Shown in pieces: positions 54,427-62,288 of a stretch of DNA of 64,000 bases. The first letter of the stretch is position 1. Every line of letters begins with the position of its first letter. A program made the position numbers and the translations under genes. The notes below the pieces were generated by a model. That model had not been told where the DNA came from. It saw only the letters and a list, made by a program, of their open reading frames with translations, and did no database searches. The stretch comes from Sphingomonas caeni (GTDB lineage Bacteria; Pseudomonadota; Alphaproteobacteria; Sphingomonadales; Sphingomonadaceae), in the NCBI RefSeq assembly GCF_026013415.1, contig NZ_JAPDOK010000005.1:1-64000 (forward strand). The letters run 5' to 3'.

Positions 54427-55446
54427 TTACTGCTGCGCGACCGGGCCCGAGAAGGCGCCGTCGGCGGCGGCGGCGGCATTGTTGAAGTTGCCGTTGAGAA
54501 AGTTGTTGCCATAGCTTTGCACGGCGGCGCTGTTCGCCGCGGTGACGCCGGCGCTGACGCCGGCGGCGCTGGAGCCATTGTTGGTGATCGTGGTGGTGGC
54601 GAAGCGTGCCGACACGCCCGAGCCGTTGCCGAACACGCCGTTATTGCCGTTGTTCGCGACGATCGTGTTGGTGACGCTCATGTTGATCGTGCCGGTGCCC
54701 GCGGGCGCCTTGATCAGCATGCCGACCGCGCTGTTGCTGAACGTGCTGTTCGAAACCTGCGCGTTGATCTTGGTGCCGGTCGTGCCGGTCAGATCGAGGC
54801 GAAGGCCGGCATTGGCGTTGGCGGTCACGCGGCTGTTGGTGATGGTGACGGTCGCGGTGCCGCTGTTCCCCGGGGCGATCTTGATCGCGCCCGTGGTGGC
54901 GTTGCCGCTGGTGCCGCTATCCTGGACGACGACATTGTCGAGATTCAGGAACGAGGTCTTGCCGACGCCGGGCGTGAAGCTGATTCCCTGCGTGCCCTGG
55001 CCCTTGATCGTGGTGTTGCGGACATGAAGGCCAGCGCCATTGAGGAAGGTGATGCCGTTGGTGCCGGGGTTGCTCTGCAGCGCGAGAATGTCGAGGCCGC
55101 TCAGCGTCACCACGTCGGTGTCGGCAGCATTGATGATGACGCCGTTGAAGCCGGTGTTCAGGACGCCGCCTTCGGTGTAATCGCAGATGATCGACATCGA
55201 CTTGGTGATCGTCACCGCGCCGAACCCGCCGGGATCGAGGCAGTTGATCTCGCCGCCCGCTGCGGTCTTCGAGATGGCGCCGGCGAAGGTCTTGCAAGGC
55301 GCCGTGCGGCTGCACGGATTGGCGTCGTCGCCCACGCCCGAAACCCAGGTGCGCGTCGCTTGCGCATAGGCCGGCGCGGCATCCAGCACGCCCATTCCAA
55401 GCACTGCAGCGCCGATCATCAACGCACGCTTGTCGAACGAAATCAT
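54427..55446 (-). CDS. Secreted right-handed beta-helix protein (paralogue 1)
   Basis: A 339-residue exported protein: signal peptide ending AAPAYAQ, a short conserved domain ATRTWVSGVGDDANPCSRTA with a Cys pair, PCKTFAGAISKTAAGGEINC, then repeated Asn/Thr/Gly-rich strands (NTTIKGQG, TITNSRVTANANAGL, SNSTFSNSAVGM) typical of parallel beta-helices such as pectate-lyase-like folds. No catalytic residues are recognised. It lies 164 bases downstream of a paralogue with the same architecture. Function may be adhesion, or carbohydrate binding or cleavage; not determinable here. Confidence 0.72.
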   Translation of the reverse strand: MISFDKRALMIGAAVLGMGVLDAAPAYAQATRTWVSGVGDDANPCSRTAPCKTFAGAISKTAAGGEINCLDPGGFGAVTITKSMSIICDYTEGGVLNTGFNGVIINAADTDVVTLSGLDILALQSNPGTNGITFLNGAGLHVRNTTIKGQGTQGISFTPGVGKTSFLNLDNVVVQDSGTSGNATTGAIKIAPGNSGTATVTITNSRVTANANAGLRLDLTGTTGTKINAQVSNSTFSNSAVGMLIKAPAGTGTINMSVTNTIVANNGNNGVFGNGSGVSARFATTTITNNGSSAAGVSAGVTAANSAAVQSYGNNFLNGNFNNAAAAADGAFSGPVAQQ

Positions 55447-55559
55447 GGAAATCCCCTTCCGAAATAGCATTCTGCCTCCCAGCAGATGCTCTGGCCGGAT
55501 TCCCATAACTCAAACCGCGAAGAAATGCGCGATTTTTTAACCTTGATCGAAAGCAAGGC

Positions 55560-55610: not shown

Positions 55611-56621
55611 TCAGTGGAGGATGATCGTTCCCGAGAAGGCACCATTCGACAGCGTGTTGGTATTATTGAAATTGCCGTCGAGCACGTTCGTGCCATAGCT
55701 CGACAGCGTTGCGCCGCCGACCGCGTTCACGCCGGTGACCGCAGCCGCCGAGCCTGAGCCGTTGCCGGTGATCGTGCTGGTCCCGAAGCGCCCCGTGGCG
55801 CCGGTGCCGTTGCCGACCACGCCACTGTTGGCGTTGCCCGAGAACACCGATCCGGTGACGCTCGCATCGATGATGCCGGTACCCGCGGGCGCCTTCAGGA
55901 TGATGCCCACGCCGCTGTTGGTGAACTGGCTGTTGGTCACCTGGGCGTTGATCCGGGCGCCGGTGATGCCGGTGATGTCGAGACGCAACCCGACATTGAC
56001 GTTGCCCGACGCGCGAACATTGTTGAGCATGACGTTGGCAGTGACGTTGGCGGCCGGGGTGACGCGGATCGTGCCGGTGGTGGCATCGCCCACGGTGCCG
56101 TTGCCGATCAGGATCACATCGTCGAGATTCATCGTCGCGGCGGTCGTTTGCGGCTGGAAGGTGATGCCGTTCGTCGCAAAGCCCTTGATCGTCGTGTTAC
56201 GCACATTGAGCACGCCGCCGTTGAGGAAGTTGATGCCGTGCGTGCCCGGAACAGTGCTCGGCCCGAAGATGTCGAGTCCGCTGATCGTCACCACATCCGT
56301 GGAAGCCGCATTGACGACGATCCCGCTCGTGCTTGCAACCAGCACGCCCGCCTCGACATCGTCGCAGATGATCGAGATCGCCTTGGTGATCGTCACGCCG
56401 CCGAAGCCGCCCGGATCGATGCAGTTGATCTCGCCGCCTGCGGCGGTCTTCGAGATCGTGCCCTGGAGGGTCTTGCACGGCGCGGTGCGGCTGCACGGAT
56501 TGGCGTCGTCGCCCACACCCGACATCCAGGTGCGCGTCGCCTGCGCGCAAGCCGGCGAGGCGGCCAGCAATCCGCCCGCCAGCATCGCGGCGGCGGTGGT
56601 CATCAGCTTGATCTTGGTCAT
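55611..56621 (-). CDS. Secreted right-handed beta-helix protein (paralogue 2)
   Basis: A 336-residue paralogue of the protein at 54427-55446. It has a signal peptide (AMLAGGLLAASPACAQ), the same ATRTWMSGVGDDANPCSRTA block with matching Cys spacing, GGEINCIDPGGFGGVTITKA, and a long series of beta-helix turns. The two differ in many repeat positions, so the duplication is old. The gene has its own upstream region toward the RiPP genes; it is divergent from the PqqD-like gene at 56809. Function is unknown. Confidence 0.72.
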   Translation of the reverse strand: MTKIKLMTTAAAMLAGGLLAASPACAQATRTWMSGVGDDANPCSRTAPCKTLQGTISKTAAGGEINCIDPGGFGGVTITKAISIICDDVEAGVLVASTSGIVVNAASTDVVTISGLDIFGPSTVPGTHGINFLNGGVLNVRNTTIKGFATNGITFQPQTTAATMNLDDVILIGNGTVGDATTGTIRVTPAANVTANVMLNNVRASGNVNVGLRLDITGITGARINAQVTNSQFTNSGVGIILKAPAGTGIIDASVTGSVFSGNANSGVVGNGTGATGRFGTSTITGNGSGSAAAVTGVNAVGGATLSSYGTNVLDGNFNNTNTLSNGAFSGTIILH

Positions 56622-56808: not shown

Positions 56809-57072
56809 TTGCTCAGCGTCGCGCCGTACATCAGTTGGAACAATGTCGAGGGCGAGCTTGCGCTCTTCGATACGCGCAGCGGCGCCTATCACGCGCTCAA
56901 TGCGAGCGGCGCGGCGATCTGGCGAGCGCTCGCTTCGGGCAAGGGCGAGGCGGAGACCGTCGATGCCCTCGCCGCCGCGCACGACGCGACGCGCGAGGCG
57001 ATCGCCGACGCGGTCCGCACCTTCATCGCCGATGCGCTCGCGCGCGGGCTGCTGGTGGAGCGCGCCGCTTGA
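56809..57072 (+). CDS. PqqD-like protein, candidate RiPP recognition element (B1)
   Basis: An 87-residue protein of the PqqD fold. The typical pattern is GELALFDTRSGAYHALNASG followed by AAIWRALASG and a three-helix tail (FIADALARGLLVE). In lasso and other RiPP systems such proteins bind the leader and deliver the precursor to the cyclase. The TTG at 56809 was chosen because the fold starts there; no ATG or GTG fits and the ribosome site is weak. It is directly coupled to the cyclase by a TTGA overlap. Confidence 0.8.
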   Translation: MLSVAPYISWNNVEGELALFDTRSGAYHALNASGAAIWRALASGKGEAETVDALAAAHDATREAIADAVRTFIADALARGLLVERAA

Positions 57073-58964
57073 GCGCGATCGCCGGCGCCGTGTTCGCGGA
57101 CGGGCGCGACATGACCCCGGCATTGCTCGCTTCGATGGCCGAGGCGATGCCGGTGCGCGGCTTCGACGGAATCAGCCACTGGCATGACGGCCCCGCGGGG
57201 ATGATCCGGTTCCATCATGCCGCGACGCCCGAGGCGGTGGGCGAGGTTCAGCCGCTCCGAGGCCCTTCCGGCGCGGTGATCGCGTTCGACGGGCGGCTCG
57301 ATAACCGGGTTGATCTGCTCGCTTTGCTCGGGCCGCGCGGAGCCGGACTGGCCGATGCGCCCGACGTCGCGATCGCGCTCGCCCTGTTCGAGGCGCGCGG
57401 CGAGGATTTCGTCCAGGCGCTGGTCGGCGACTGGGCGATGGCGATTTGGCAGCCGGAGCCGCGCCGCCTCTTCTGCGCGCGCTCGCCGGGCGGCTGGCGG
57501 CCGTTCCTGTGGACCTTCGACGGCAAGACCTTCGGCTTCGCCACCGAACCGCGCGCGCTGGTCGTCGGGCTCGGGCTCGAGCGGCGGCTCAACCAGGGCG
57601 CGATCGGCGAGATGATGGCGGCGCGCTTCGTCACCAATACCGAGACCTTCTGGGACGGCGTCCAGCGCCTCGGCCAGGGCGGCGCGCTCGCGTTCGAGAA
57701 GGGCGCGGTGCGGACCTGGCAATGGCACACGGGGCCGTTCGAGGACCTGTCGCACCTTTCCGAGACCGACCTGATCGACAAGTTCCGCGAGACGCTCGAC
57801 ACCGCGTTGATCTCAGCGATGCGGAGCAATACCGCGGTCAGCTCGCATCTCTCGGGCGGGCTCGATTCCTCGACCGTCGTCGCGCGGCTGACCGAGTTGC
57901 ACCGTGCCGGACGCGTCGCGAGCCAGGTCAACGCCGTCACCGCGCGCTTCCCCGGCGAGAGCCAGGACGAGACCGAATGGAGCCAAGCGGTCGAGAAGCA
58001 TCTGGGCATCGCCGCGCGGGTCACCGCCGCCGACCCCTATCCGCTGGACGACGCGCGGCGCTGGACCGCCGAGACGTTCCAGCTGCCGCTGCGCCCCAAT
58101 GTCCATGACACCACCACCGCCGCCTTCCGCATGCTCCAGCAGGGCGGCGAGCGCGTACTGCTCACCGGCGAGGGCGGCGACGACTGGATGGCGGGCAATT
58201 TCGGCTATCTGCCCGACATGCTGATGCGCGGGGACCTGGTCGGGCTGTTCCGCCAGGCGATGACGCAATTCCCCGCCGAGCCCGTCCATGTGCGCCTGCG
58301 CCGCACCGCCTTCCTCGCCGCGGCGCCGGTGTTCAGCCGCTCCTATCGCGCCAAGTTCCTGAAGCCGCATCTCGTTCTCGATCCGCCGATGCCCGATTTC
58401 ATCCGCGCCGATTGGGCCGCGCGGATCGGGCTCGCCGATCGCTGGGCGAACACCCCGCCCCCGGTCGATCCGCCGGGCTTCGCGCAGAAGCAGCGCTACG
58501 CGACCTTCACCCATGCGCGGCGCCACATCGCCCACGACACGATCCTCGCCGCCGCGGAGCGTCACGGCGTCGAAATGCGTCACCCGCTCCACGATCTGCG
58601 CCTCGCCAATTTCTTCATGGGGGTGCCGGGCTGGATGCTGCGGCGCAACGGCGAGAAGAAATACATATTGCGCGAGGCGATGCGCGGGACGCTGACCGAA
58701 AAGGTCCGCACGCGGCAGGACAAGGCGGTGTTCATCACCAGCCTGGTCGATGCGATCGAGGACCGCTTCGCCGAATGTCCGCCGCAGCAGCTGATCCCGG
58801 CGCGAATGGGCTGGATCGACGGCGACCGGGTCGAGGCGATGTTCGCGCCGGCGCGCGAATGGCGGCGCGCGGGATCGCCCGGGCCGCTCACCCGCACGCG
58901 GATCGGGCCGGTCTGGTTCATCGTCGCGATGGACCTGTGGCTCGAACACGCATTCGGGCTATAG
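57069..58964 (+). CDS. Asparagine-synthetase-like RiPP macrolactam cyclase
   Basis: A 631-residue asparagine-synthetase-fold protein. The N-terminal half (about 1-200) resembles the glutaminase domain but begins SAIAGAVF with Ser instead of the essential N-terminal Cys, so glutamine hydrolysis is not expected. The C-terminal synthetase half has the ATP PP-loop SSHLSGGLDSSTVVARL and, later, LLTGEGGDDWMAG. This combination, with neighbouring PqqD and precursor genes, is that of lasso-peptide cyclases, which adenylate an Asp/Glu side chain of the core. TTG 57069 overlaps the PqqD stop (TTGA); a longer frame upstream covers the PqqD gene and is rejected. Confidence 0.85.
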   Translation: MSAIAGAVFADGRDMTPALLASMAEAMPVRGFDGISHWHDGPAGMIRFHHAATPEAVGEVQPLRGPSGAVIAFDGRLDNRVDLLALLGPRGAGLADAPDVAIALALFEARGEDFVQALVGDWAMAIWQPEPRRLFCARSPGGWRPFLWTFDGKTFGFATEPRALVVGLGLERRLNQGAIGEMMAARFVTNTETFWDGVQRLGQGGALAFEKGAVRTWQWHTGPFEDLSHLSETDLIDKFRETLDTALISAMRSNTAVSSHLSGGLDSSTVVARLTELHRAGRVASQVNAVTARFPGESQDETEWSQAVEKHLGIAARVTAADPYPLDDARRWTAETFQLPLRPNVHDTTTAAFRMLQQGGERVLLTGEGGDDWMAGNFGYLPDMLMRGDLVGLFRQAMTQFPAEPVHVRLRRTAFLAAAPVFSRSYRAKFLKPHLVLDPPMPDFIRADWAARIGLADRWANTPPPVDPPGFAQKQRYATFTHARRHIAHDTILAAAERHGVEMRHPLHDLRLANFFMGVPGWMLRRNGEKKYILREAMRGTLTEKVRTRQDKAVFITSLVDAIEDRFAECPPQQLIPARMGWIDGDRVEAMFAPAREWRRAGSPGPLTRTRIGPVWFIVAMDLWLEHAFGL

Positions 58965-58990
58965 CCCCGCGCGAGCCACGAGAGAATCGC

Positions 58991-59272
58991 ATGTCCGCCC
59001 TCACCGACACCAGCATCGCCGCCCGCGCGGACAACAAGGTCGCCGCCGATCTGGGCGAGCAGACCGTGATCATGGACATTGAGAGCGGCTATTATTTCCA
59101 GCTCAACCAATCGGGCGCGGCGATCTGGGGGCAGCTGGAAACGCCCATGGCGCTGGCCGAGATCTGCGCCCGGCTGAAGGCGAGGTTCGAGGTGGACGCG
59201 CAGACCTGCCGCGCCGAGGTCGGCGAATTCCTCGAATTGATGCGCGACAAGGGCCTCGTGACGATCCGCTAG
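58991..59272 (+). CDS. Second PqqD-like protein
   Basis: A 93-residue PqqD-fold protein: TVIMDIESGYYFQLNQSGAA followed by IWGQLETPMALAEICARLK, with a C-terminal helix pair. It starts at ATG 58991, 26 bases after the cyclase, with GAGAG just upstream. It is distinct from the copy at 56809 (little identity beyond the YY/H-x-L-N-x-S-G-AAIW core). Two separate PqqD proteins in one cluster is unusual and could mean separate leader handling for cyclisation and for a tailoring step; inference. Confidence 0.8.
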   Translation: MSALTDTSIAARADNKVAADLGEQTVIMDIESGYYFQLNQSGAAIWGQLETPMALAEICARLKARFEVDAQTCRAEVGEFLELMRDKGLVTIR

Positions 59273-59494
59273 GGTCTTTACGCCATTCGCTTTGGCTTGG
59301 GCTTCGGGGGCCAAGCCTTGCAATGTAGGATTTCGCCTGCTTGGCTGGCGCAGCCGGGCGCTCCGGCCGCTCTTTGACCCTATCGATCCTCACCTTGCGA
59401 ACTACGCGTTTCCCTCCCGGGAACCGCGCGGCGCAAAACATGCGCGATAGTGTGAAGCTAGTGTCAACTTTCACATGCTGGGACCGCGCTCCGC

Positions 59495-60325
59495 TCACGC
59501 CCGCTCCGTCCGCTCGCGAAGATAGCGCAGCACCCAGGCCTCGTTGCCCGCATCCGCCTGGCGCCGCATCCGCATCGGCGGCACCGCGGCGGCGCTGCCG
59601 AAATGGCCGAGCACGGTGCGCACGCTGCCTTCGTAATCGGCGGCAAGCTGTTCATAAGTGAGCGCCAGCGGGGCCGTGCCGGTCGCGGCGAAATAGTTGC
59701 GCCAATGGCCGTGGCAGAAATCGGAATAGGCGACATAGCCGTCGATCCGGTCGAAATCATAGGCGGCCGTTCCGATGGCCGGCTGCTCGCCCATATCGGG
59801 GACGATGCGGAACTGGCCGGTCTGGGTCGCGGCGAGCCCCGAAACCGCCTGACGCACCCGATCGATGCGCTCGAGATGGACATGCTCGGGGTTCGGGAAG
59901 GCTTGGGCGAGCACGGCCGCGATGGCGCGATAGTCGTCGGGCGTCACCGCATCGGGCGCGCGCCCGCGCAGCTCGCCGAAGCGTGCCGGATCGAGTTCCG
60001 CCGCCAGATCCTCGACGTCGCGCCAGAAGATCTTGACCGAGAGCGTCCCCGACGGATCGGTGCGATGCCGGTGCACCGCCGCGATCTGTTCGCGCAGCCC
60101 GTGCGTGCCCCAGCGCCCGGCGAGGCCGGGCAGGAAGCCCCGGTGGAAATATTCGAGCGGGCAGCCGAGCCCGCCCGCGAAATAGAGCGCTTCGCCGAGC
60201 AAGCTGCTCCCGGAGCGCGGATGGGTGGCGATCAGCAGCGTGCGGCGCGGCGGCCCTTCGCGCTCGGGATAGTCGTGCGCCGCGCCGGTCAGGTCATAGG
60301 GTTTGCGGCCGTCCGCCATCGTCAC
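59495..60325 (-). CDS. Stf0-type sulfotransferase
   Basis: A 276-residue sulfotransferase-like enzyme. The PAPS 5'-phosphosulfate loop is LLIATHPRSGSSLLGEALYF, as in Stf0/trehalose sulfotransferase-like proteins. Later segments include GTLSVKIFWRDVEDL and HVHLERIDRVRQAVSG (3'-phosphate binding), and LALTYEQLAADYEG. GTG 60325 overlaps the kinase stop (GTGA). The product of the putative precursor core has Thr and Ser hydroxyls that could accept sulfate; the acceptor is otherwise unknown. Confidence 0.82.
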   Translation of the reverse strand: MTMADGRKPYDLTGAAHDYPEREGPPRRTLLIATHPRSGSSLLGEALYFAGGLGCPLEYFHRGFLPGLAGRWGTHGLREQIAAVHRHRTDPSGTLSVKIFWRDVEDLAAELDPARFGELRGRAPDAVTPDDYRAIAAVLAQAFPNPEHVHLERIDRVRQAVSGLAATQTGQFRIVPDMGEQPAIGTAAYDFDRIDGYVAYSDFCHGHWRNYFAATGTAPLALTYEQLAADYEGSVRTVLGHFGSAAAVPPMRMRRQADAGNEAWVLRYLRERTERA

Positions 60326-61173
60326 GCCCTGAGAATGCCCCGCAGCAGCTCCGCGACTTGCGGCAATGCTCCGTAATCGGCGGGATAGCGCAACCCGTAG
60401 CAGGGCGTCACCCGCGCGATCTCGCCGAGTCGCCCGAACGTGTCGACCGTTTCCCGGTTCGCGTCGGCGGGATTGAAGCGAATGCGCTGGCGCGAGGCGC
60501 GGATTAGCCCCTCGCCCGCCGGCAGCGGCCGCAGTTCGGGCATTTCGATATTGGGCAGACGCGCGAGGAAGATCAGCGCCTTGAGCGGTACCGCGCCGCC
60601 ATCCTGCTCGCCGCCGGGCGCGAAGCGGACCTTGCCCTCATAACCCGGCATGGGGACGCAGAGCGGGTCGGGCAGCTCGAGCCCGACACGCGAATCCTCC
60701 CACACGCACACGCCGGTGGTCGACGGGGTGACCACCGGTGCTCCAGGCTCCCAGATGATCGAGATATCGTCGCTCAATATATCCCAGCCGTTCGCCCCGA
60801 GCGATGCCGACAGCGTCGACTTGCCCGCGCCGGAACCGCCGAGCAACATCAGCGCGCCGCCATCGATCGCGGCGGTGGCGGCATGGACCGCGGTCGCGCC
60901 ATAAAGCATCGCGACGCGCGGCAGCACGCGGCGGACCAGCACGTCGAGCCAGGCAGGCTCGTTGGGCCGCTCGACGAAACAGCGCACGCGGTGCCGCCCC
61001 GGCTCGATCAGGAAGGCGCCGTCGAGCGCGGACGCCATCAGCCAATCGCTGCCGCAGCTGCCCAGCGTCAGGCCGTAGCGGCCGCCCCAGCCAAAGAGGA
61101 TATGATCGGCTCGGGGTGCCGGACCCGTTTCGACGGTGAGCGCCACATCGGCCTTGGCCGGCGGCAACCCCAC
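60322..61173 (-). CDS. HPr-kinase-like protein, candidate RiPP kinase
   Basis: A protein of 283 residues from GTG 61173 with Walker A LLGGSGAGKSTLSASL (about residue 110) and conserved acidic SDDISIIWEPG, the pattern of HPr-kinase/phosphorylase-C-like proteins near lasso clusters. Such kinases phosphorylate the C-terminal Ser of paeninodin-type peptides. Homology-like sequence (YSFGGLRLGSSAELDQLRP) continues in frame upstream to a CTG at 61248, so the real start may be a rare CTG; there is no in-frame stop between it and the precursor stop. It overlaps the sulfotransferase gene. Confidence 0.8.
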   Translation of the reverse strand: MGLPPAKADVALTVETGPAPRADHILFGWGGRYGLTLGSCGSDWLMASALDGAFLIEPGRHRVRCFVERPNEPAWLDVLVRRVLPRVAMLYGATAVHAATAAIDGGALMLLGGSGAGKSTLSASLGANGWDILSDDISIIWEPGAPVVTPSTTGVCVWEDSRVGLELPDPLCVPMPGYEGKVRFAPGGEQDGGAVPLKALIFLARLPNIEMPELRPLPAGEGLIRASRQRIRFNPADANRETVDTFGRLGEIARVTPCYGLRYPADYGALPQVAELLRGILRA

Positions 61174-61257
61174 ACGAAAAGGCCGCAGCTGGTCCAGCTC
61201 TGCGCTGGAACCGAGCCGCAGCCCCCCAAAACTATATTGAAAACTCAGACGGTCGAT

Positions 61258-61407
61258 TCAGCTGTTGCTGCTGAGCGCATCGCCCGGGTTGATAGTAGCG
61301 GCCTGGGTGGCCGAAACCGGCTCGAACGAAGCGATCTCCGGCTTCACCCAGATGTTGCGGGTCTCAACCACGGTTTCGGTCTCAAGAGTCTTTTCGACAG
61401 AAGTCAT
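61258..61407 (-). CDS. Candidate RiPP (lasso-type) precursor peptide
   Basis: A 49-residue peptide, too short for usual ORF calling. ATG 61407 is followed by an acidic leader, WVKPEIASF (residues 20-28, resembling the leader motif Y/W-x-x-P-x-L/I), then Thr34-Gln35 (Thr at -2). The predicted 14-residue core is AATINPGDALSSNS. Asp at core position 8 would form the ring with Ala1; the tail ends in Ser49, the expected kinase target. It is directly upstream of the kinase gene in the same direction and frame. Processing sites are inferred from family rules. Confidence 0.72.
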   Translation of the reverse strand: MTSVEKTLETETVVETRNIWVKPEIASFEPVSATQAATINPGDALSSNS

Positions 61408-61468: not shown

Positions 61469-61675
61469 TCGTTACCGTAAACCCAATCTTGCCGTTTGCG
61501 GCGCCCATATGCTGTTCGCGCCGCGATCCCGCAACTATGGTTAATGCAAGGCTTTCTGGTCAACACCCTGCGCCCGAACACGTCCGAGATCGGGACGGCC
61601 CCGGCCCCATTGGCAAAGCGCGCGCGACCGCGCAGTATCCGCTGGGGTCCGAATCAGCAGGAAAAGGCGAGGATT

Positions 61676-61999
61676 GTGGGGATTTTGAAGCGCGTGCGCC
61701 CGTTGGCGTGGGCCGGAGCAGCTTGGGCGACCATCGGATCGACCGCCGCACAGGCGTCGCTGGGCGATCCGGCGGGCTCGGGCGTGATCGTCTCGGCGGT
61801 GCGCTGGCTCGAGGGGACCTTGCTCGGCACGATCGCCACGGTGGTCGCGGTGATCGCGGTCGCCTCGGTGGGCCTTTTGATGCTCACGGGCCGGATCAAC
61901 TGGCGCTATGGCGCGACTGTGATCGTCGGGACCTTCATCCTGTTCGGCGCGGCCAGCATCGTTGCGGGGATCCAGTCCACCGCGCAGATGGCGCAGTGA
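61676..61999 (+). CDS. virB2: VirB2-type pilin of a type IV secretion system
   Basis: A 107-residue membrane protein: basic start, first helix with a signal-like cleavage after AAQA (about residue 28), then two helices separated by a short basic loop (LLMLTGRINWRYGATVIVG). This is the VirB2/TrbC pilin pattern. GTG 61676 is preceded by GGCGAGG; TTG 61685 is possible. It is followed by virB3 and virB4-like genes in order, which supports the call. Confidence 0.8.
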   Translation: MGILKRVRPLAWAGAAWATIGSTAAQASLGDPAGSGVIVSAVRWLEGTLLGTIATVVAVIAVASVGLLMLTGRINWRYGATVIVGTFILFGAASIVAGIQSTAQMAQ

Positions 62000-62003
62000 C
62001 GCC

Positions 62004-62288
62004 ATGAATGGGCTGGAACGCGATTCGCTGTTCGTGGCCCTCACGCGCCCGCAGATGTTCGCCGGCGTGACCTATAGCTATTTCATCATGAACATGGTCG
62101 TCGCGACCGAATTGTTCCTGCTGTTCAAATCGGCCTGGGTGCTGGCCGCGGCGCTGGTGATCCACCTGATCGGCGTGCTGCTATGCCTGCGCGAGCCGCG
62201 CTTCTTCGATCTCTGGATGACGCGCGCCAGCCGCACGCCCAGGATCAAGAATTACAAGATCTGGCGATGCAACTCGTACAGGCCATGA
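62004..62288 (+). CDS. virB3: VirB3-type T4SS membrane protein
   Basis: A 94-residue protein with two N-terminal hydrophobic helices (MFAGVTYSYFIMNMVVATELFLLF and WVLAAALVIHLIGVLLCL) and a charged C-terminal tail, ending RRT-like (WMTRASRTPRIKNYKIW). VirB3 family members share LFVALTRPQMFAGV-type starts. ATG 62004 is 4 bases after virB2; the end overlaps virB4 by 4 bases if virB4 begins at 62285. Confidence 0.85.
   Translation: MNGLERDSLFVALTRPQMFAGVTYSYFIMNMVVATELFLLFKSAWVLAAALVIHLIGVLLCLREPRFFDLWMTRASRTPRIKNYKIWRCNSYRP

Follow-up and report, generated by a model that had tools for sequence, protein, structure and literature searches.

Does one gene cluster of Sphingomonas caeni direct both the phosphorylation and the sulfation of a single ribosomally synthesized and post-translationally modified peptide (RiPP)? 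The question is raised by six genes in a 64,000-nucleotide window of contig NZ_JAPDOK010000005.1 (assembly GCF_026013415.1; all coordinates are positions in this window, which means the whole stretch analysed), encoding two PqqD-like proteins, an asparagine synthetase (AsnB)-like cyclase, a small precursor peptide (A), an HprK-like kinase (K) and a Stf0-family sulfotransferase. All six genes lie where a preliminary description of the window had placed them (Table 1), and domain searches match each to the family named there, the kinase weakly. The plus-strand genes of the PqqD-like proteins and the cyclase face the minus-strand genes of the precursor, the kinase and the sulfotransferase.

This gene set probably makes a knotted (lasso) peptide bearing phosphate and sulfate. 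It is considered likely that it belongs to a family of Sphingomonadales lasso-peptide clusters equipped with a kinase and Stf0, and that it follows the path proposed here. A RiPP recognition element (RRE) protein (PqqD2 as the B1 component, with PqqD1 probably serving a tailoring enzyme) would bind the leader motif WVKPEI; K would phosphorylate the last serine of the core (Ser14) and Stf0 would sulfate a ring hydroxyl, here that of Thr3; a leader peptidase (B2), whose gene lies on a different contig and which would also serve a paralogous cluster, would cleave after Thr-Gln; and the cyclase would link Ala1 to Asp8. The order of these steps, the residues modified and the threading of the tail are what we infer from conserved motifs and synteny.

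Precursor, cyclase and recognition proteins

The precursor consists of a 35-residue leader MTSVEKTLETETVVETRNIWVKPEIASFEPVSATQ (61303-61407) and a predicted 14-residue core AATINPGDALSSNS (61261-61302). It has the features of lasso precursors: a YxxP or WxxP leader motif (WVKPEI, of the WxxPxI type), Thr at position -2, Gly, Ala, Ser or Cys at core position 1 (Ala1), and Asp or Glu at positions 7 to 9 (Asp8); an Ala1-Asp8 ring is predicted for this core. The cleavage site was placed 16 residues from the Trp, the boundary being set by the motif. The same spacing is found in all 29 precursors compared, with Asp or Glu at core position 8 or 9 in every one, and it gives Gly, Ala or Ser at position 1 of every other core except that of locus L031 (Asn). 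The residue at -2 is Ala in 22 of the 29 precursors and Thr in that of the window, most other cores being of GISYRPxDG[IL]SNLT types with Ala at -2. A chance open reading frame is ruled out by homologs (59% identity, E ~1e-14) at the same position in Sphingomonas mali and S. asaccharolytica, the cores of which are AATLNPGDGLSSNS and AATLNPGDALSSNS, respectively.

A scan with the Stf0 alignment, covering one genome per species, found 14 loci, all in Sphingomonadales; together with genome searches it gave a comparison set of 22 loci holding this Stf0, 21 of which contain a precursor and 19 an intact cyclase. The exceptions are L037 (in which no precursor was found and the cyclase is broken), L038 (a contig of 3.6 kb) and L042 (A and Stf0 only), the genome of the last having cyclases and a B2-K-PqqD1 group on other contigs. 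The gene order, which the preliminary description proposed to look for in other sphingomonads, thus recurs in Sphingomonas and its relatives, and this conserved synteny bears out the leader/core precursor with its 14-residue core. Enzyme sets lacking a precursor, which had been named as an argument against the assignment, were seen just once (L037), where the cyclase is broken also. Across the genus, the cyclase was found at E <= 1e-80 in 15 of 295 genomes.

The cyclase begins with SAIAG and lacks the N-terminal Cys but keeps the SGGLDSS loop, and its best NCBIfam match is the lasso cyclase model NF033535, with a score under the curated cut-off. An ordinary glutamine-hydrolysing asparagine synthetase is ruled out by the missing Cys and by the higher score of the lasso cyclase model. 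The divergence of the cyclase, and a tail (ALSSNS) that is short and without a bulky plug residue, would suit a product that is branched-cyclic or otherwise linked and unthreaded, the cyclase forming a macrolactam only; this is thought unlikely, since the cyclase, the RRE, B2 and the leader motif are all of lasso-system type, and a phosphate on Ser14 could add bulk to the tail.

Two PqqD proteins provide the PqqD-like RRE (B1) of a lasso pathway. In a tree built from few alignment columns, one branch (support 89/94) separates the PqqD1 from the PqqD2 sequences; PqqD1 scores above the cut-off of TIGR04353, the model of the HPr-rel-A system PqqD, and PqqD2 is nearest to the lasso PqqD models. 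These assignments point to PqqD2 as the B1 partner and to PqqD1 as the partner of a tailoring enzyme. A one-to-one link of PqqD1 with Stf0 was not upheld: the Stf0 clusters L122, L032 and L124 have no PqqD1 nearby, and L093 and L130 place PqqD1 with B2 and K.

A leader peptidase encoded elsewhere

No B2 was found in the window. The preliminary description had named PqqD/RRE, cyclase and precursor as the components of lasso peptide biosynthesis, and conserved synteny supports its lasso-type reading; it overlooked the absence of B2, and because this peptidase is missing the six genes alone are an incomplete lasso pathway. The S. caeni genome encodes a solitary B2 on another contig (G000:C12, ~439 kb; NF033537, 81.9 bits against a cut-off of 33), which keeps the Cys-His-Asp residues (Cys and His-Ala-Trp-Leu-Asp), and a further Transglut_core3 protein, more distant, is encoded on contig C19. 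At least one B2 is present in 18 of 18 related genomes tested, inside the cluster in L025, L027, L039, L040 and L125 and elsewhere in others; in draft genomes separate contigs show only that B2 is outside the locus. The closed genome G318 has its sole B2 at 2.43 Mb and cyclases at 0.42 and 0.79 Mb, so that B2 is ~2.0 Mb away from the cluster with Stf0 and 1.6 Mb away from the second one; this supports the service of several clusters by one B2. Thus, B2 appears to be shared in trans.

Contig C12 of S. caeni also carries a richer paralogous cluster (L017), with a cyclase 53% identical to that of the window. Its order is nucleotidyltransferase (N), K, a protein arginine methyltransferase (PRMT)-like gene, A (GISYRPTDGISNLTP), Stf0, a 2-oxoglutarate (2OG) oxygenase, PqqD2, cyclase, PqqD1 and a radical S-adenosylmethionine (SAM) protein. 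The existence of this paralog, the lack of B2 or N near the window cluster, and a kinase gene that lacks a canonical start codon where its homologs begin could mean that the window cluster is decaying, with B2 lost and the kinase start degraded, and that the paralog on C12 is the working one. Such decay is unlikely, as all frames of the window cluster are open over their full length with catalytic motifs intact, and its closest relatives (L029-L031) share its arrangement, likewise without a local B2.

Kinase, sulfotransferase and their candidate targets

The Pfam match of the kinase is weak (0.007), yet its identity is confirmed by the residues H-G-G-G-K-S-D-D, spaced as published for BsfK (PMC10368454) in a motif beginning at residue 125 of the 311-residue frame, and by a structure model (predicted local distance difference test (pLDDT) score 92) that matches the phosphoenolpyruvate carboxykinase (PEPCK) and HprK folds. 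Together with synteny in the 22 Stf0-bearing loci, these residues and this fold uphold the link between an HPr-kinase-like gene and a lasso cluster drawn in the preliminary description. In lasso precursors, HprK homologs phosphorylate the C-terminal Ser (PMC8498205), and the window has both the kinase catalytic residues and a C-terminal Ser in the core, Ser14. The kinase gene of the window has no ATG, GTG or TTG at the place where its homologs start; CTG 61248 fits the homologs, and GTG 61173 is the earliest canonical codon. L029 offers the kinase an ATG that overlaps the end of A, whereas in the window this reading frame meets a stop.

The sulfotransferase has the Stf0 domain, the loop PRSGSSLL that would bind 3'-phosphoadenosine 5'-phosphosulfate (PAPS) and a putative catalytic Glu that aligns with the PQEFF of 1TEX. 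Its model (pLDDT 74) matches 1TEX best and tyrosylprotein sulfotransferases next, and its score falls far short of the NCBIfam cut-off for trehalose 2-sulfotransferase (73.9 bits against 400). No member of this Stf0 subfamily was found at E <= 1e-40 in 384 other Alphaproteobacteria genomes, and among plasmid relatives the Stf0 matches were only ~30% and no cyclase match was found. Recurrent synteny, together with the lack of this Stf0 in those 384 genomes at that threshold, rules out an unrelated neighbour. In L042, A and Stf0 are paired with no other intact cluster gene nearby, and therefore Stf0 is tied to the precursor itself. A different sulfotransferase (Sulfotransfer_1) occurs with a PqqD2-like gene and B2 in L045 and L129, apart from the main clusters, and may represent a second sulfation system.

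Both enzymes would act on the one peptide. A lasso-type cluster in which Stf0 modifies another molecule, such as a lipid or a sugar added by a nucleotidyltransferase, is not favoured and seems improbable: the characterised Stf0 (1TEX) acts on trehalose, NTP_transf_5 genes are present in most sister clusters and a relative of these adds hexose to phosphate in pseudomycoidin (PMC8498205), but the window, L030 and L031 keep Stf0 beside the precursor with no nucleotidyltransferase found close by, and in L042 A and Stf0 stand alone as a pair. The fuller proposal, that Stf0 is the peptide sulfotransferase of a lasso pathway, that the product is sulfated as well as phosphorylated, and that the pathway is split, a single B2 acting in trans for several clusters, is given about an even chance.

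Candidate sites of modification were sought in the 29 cores. Ser or Thr occupies the last or next-to-last position in all of them, in Stf0-bearing and kinase-only clusters alike, as would suit a kinase target of the paeninodin type, and a ring residue with a hydroxyl group is present in every Stf0-bearing core and in none of the 4 kinase-only cores. Because the terminal Ser/Thr is universal and the ring hydroxyl tracks Stf0, the best guesses are Ser14 as the target of K and Thr3 as that of Stf0. Several points weigh against this assignment or against the proposed path as a whole. The kinase-only cores are few (n = 4) and related; a single conserved target position for Stf0 was sought and not found, as Tyr4, Thr3, Thr4, Thr6, Ser7 and others occur; and the roles of the two enzymes could be exchanged, since the kinases BsfK and LppK target residue 3 (PMC10368454, PMC13381572). 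The cyclase scores 243.6 bits against a curated NCBIfam cut-off of 525, and the kinase may be poorly expressed, as its gene lacks a canonical start codon at the position used by its homologs.

A further enzyme tracks its candidate substrate in the sister clusters. The PRMT-like gene (L017:6675-7739, with homologs in L025, L027, L032-L038, L096, L122, L124 and L127, and a double-E loop SEIVSNDxxxE) accompanies 15 of 15 cores with Arg and 0 of 14 without, counts that overstate the independent evidence because the loci are related; this suggests methylation of arginine in the lasso core. In L091, the core of which is GISFKPNDGLSNLS (Tyr replaced by Phe and Arg by Lys), a local Stf0 and a PRMT-like gene are both missing. 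This agrees with Tyr4 and Arg5 being the targets in this branch, although Stf0 is found elsewhere in the L091 genome. A RiPP-type radical-SAM C-methyltransferase (TIGR03975) is also encoded beside Stf0 lasso clusters, above cut-off in L122 (L122:11740-13587) and present too in L017, L032, L034, L036, L091 and L124.

Cluster surroundings and known systems

The block common to the closest relatives extends to 54427 and includes two genes for beta-helix proteins with signal-like N-termini, situated between PqqD1 and hut-type genes. Of the clusters compared, L029, L030 and L031 alone have a homolog in the same divergent position, and the S. caeni genome has no copies beyond these two. On the opposite flank, TrbC/VirB2-like and VirB3-like type IV secretion genes (61496-62288) adjoin the precursor and are absent from related clusters. 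The only Rfam match in the window is one tRNA.

Table 1. Genes of the candidate lasso-peptide cluster and adjoining beta-helix genes
Feature	Position	Strand	Basis
PqqD1, RRE protein of PqqD1 lineage	56809-57072	+	TTG start; PF05402 7.5e-15; above TIGR04353 cut-off
AsnB-like lasso cyclase	57069-58964	+	TTG start; NF033535 4.6e-72, under cut-off; Asn_synthase Pfam 2e-39
PqqD2, B1-type RRE protein	58991-59272	+	PF05402 3.6e-21; best NCBIfam match lasso_PqqD_Bac; tree
Stf0-family sulfotransferase	59495-60325	-	PF09037 7.7e-27; PAPS-loop; fold match 1TEX
HprK-like kinase K	60322-61248	-	candidate CTG start; K of related clusters 37-54% identical; BsfK-like catalytic residues; PEPCK/HprK fold
Precursor A	61258-61407	-	homologs in 21 of 22 Stf0-bearing loci
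Predicted secreted right-handed beta-helix protein (candidate accessory gene)	55611-56621	-	divergent from PqqD1
Second beta-helix protein, tandem paralog	54427-55506	-	58% identical to first

The pairing of a kinase with a lasso cluster is already known from paeninodin and Bsf. Paeninodin-type clusters (Paenibacillus, with homologs in Sphingobium yanoikuyae) likewise have a precursor, a discrete RRE, an AsnB-like cyclase, an HprK-like kinase and a C-terminal core Ser; unlike them, the window cluster lacks B2 and a transporter and has two PqqD lineages and Stf0. The Bsf system of Bradymonas sediminis (PMC10368454) has the same kinase residues and a predicted Gly1/Ala1-Asp8 ring, and resembles most relatives of the window precursor in having a residue other than Thr at -2, where the window precursor itself has the classical Thr; it differs in its local B2, transporter and nucleotidyltransferase, and in phosphorylating Ser3. 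The LPP family of Bacillota (PMC13381572) shares the RRE and the HprK-like kinase, and WxxP (the motif of the window) and YxxP leader motifs are regarded in that paper as specificity determinants, but it uses a signal-peptidase-like leader peptidase and its core set has no macrolactam cyclase. With the mycobacterial Stf0 trehalose 2-sulfotransferase the window enzyme has in common the fold, the PAPS-loop and the aligned Glu, but it is linked instead to a peptide precursor.

The remark in the preliminary description that a sulfotransferase is not standard in such clusters holds for characterised systems, but a putative sulfotransferase gene is reported from some Firmicutes lasso clusters (review PMC8498205, citing Zhu et al. 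2016). The open literature searched yielded no sulfated lasso peptide and no description of one carrying both phosphate and sulfate, although the parts of the cluster are of known kinds. A comparative-genomics table of Erythrobacteraceae lists B2, nucleotidyltransferase, sulfotransferases, PqqD and an asparagine-synthase-like protein as adjacent in cluster numbering (PMC10040529); such gene sets have therefore been seen before, undiscussed.

The sister clusters offer natural pairings of substrate and enzyme, such as the PRMT-like methyltransferase with Arg-containing cores, in which targets are directly testable. If the proposed path is correct, genome-mining tools that demand a local B2 should allow for clusters of this kind being split across the genome. 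Sulfation would then join the known modifications of lasso peptides, and Stf0, a family known for the sulfation of sugars, would gain a role in peptide modification.

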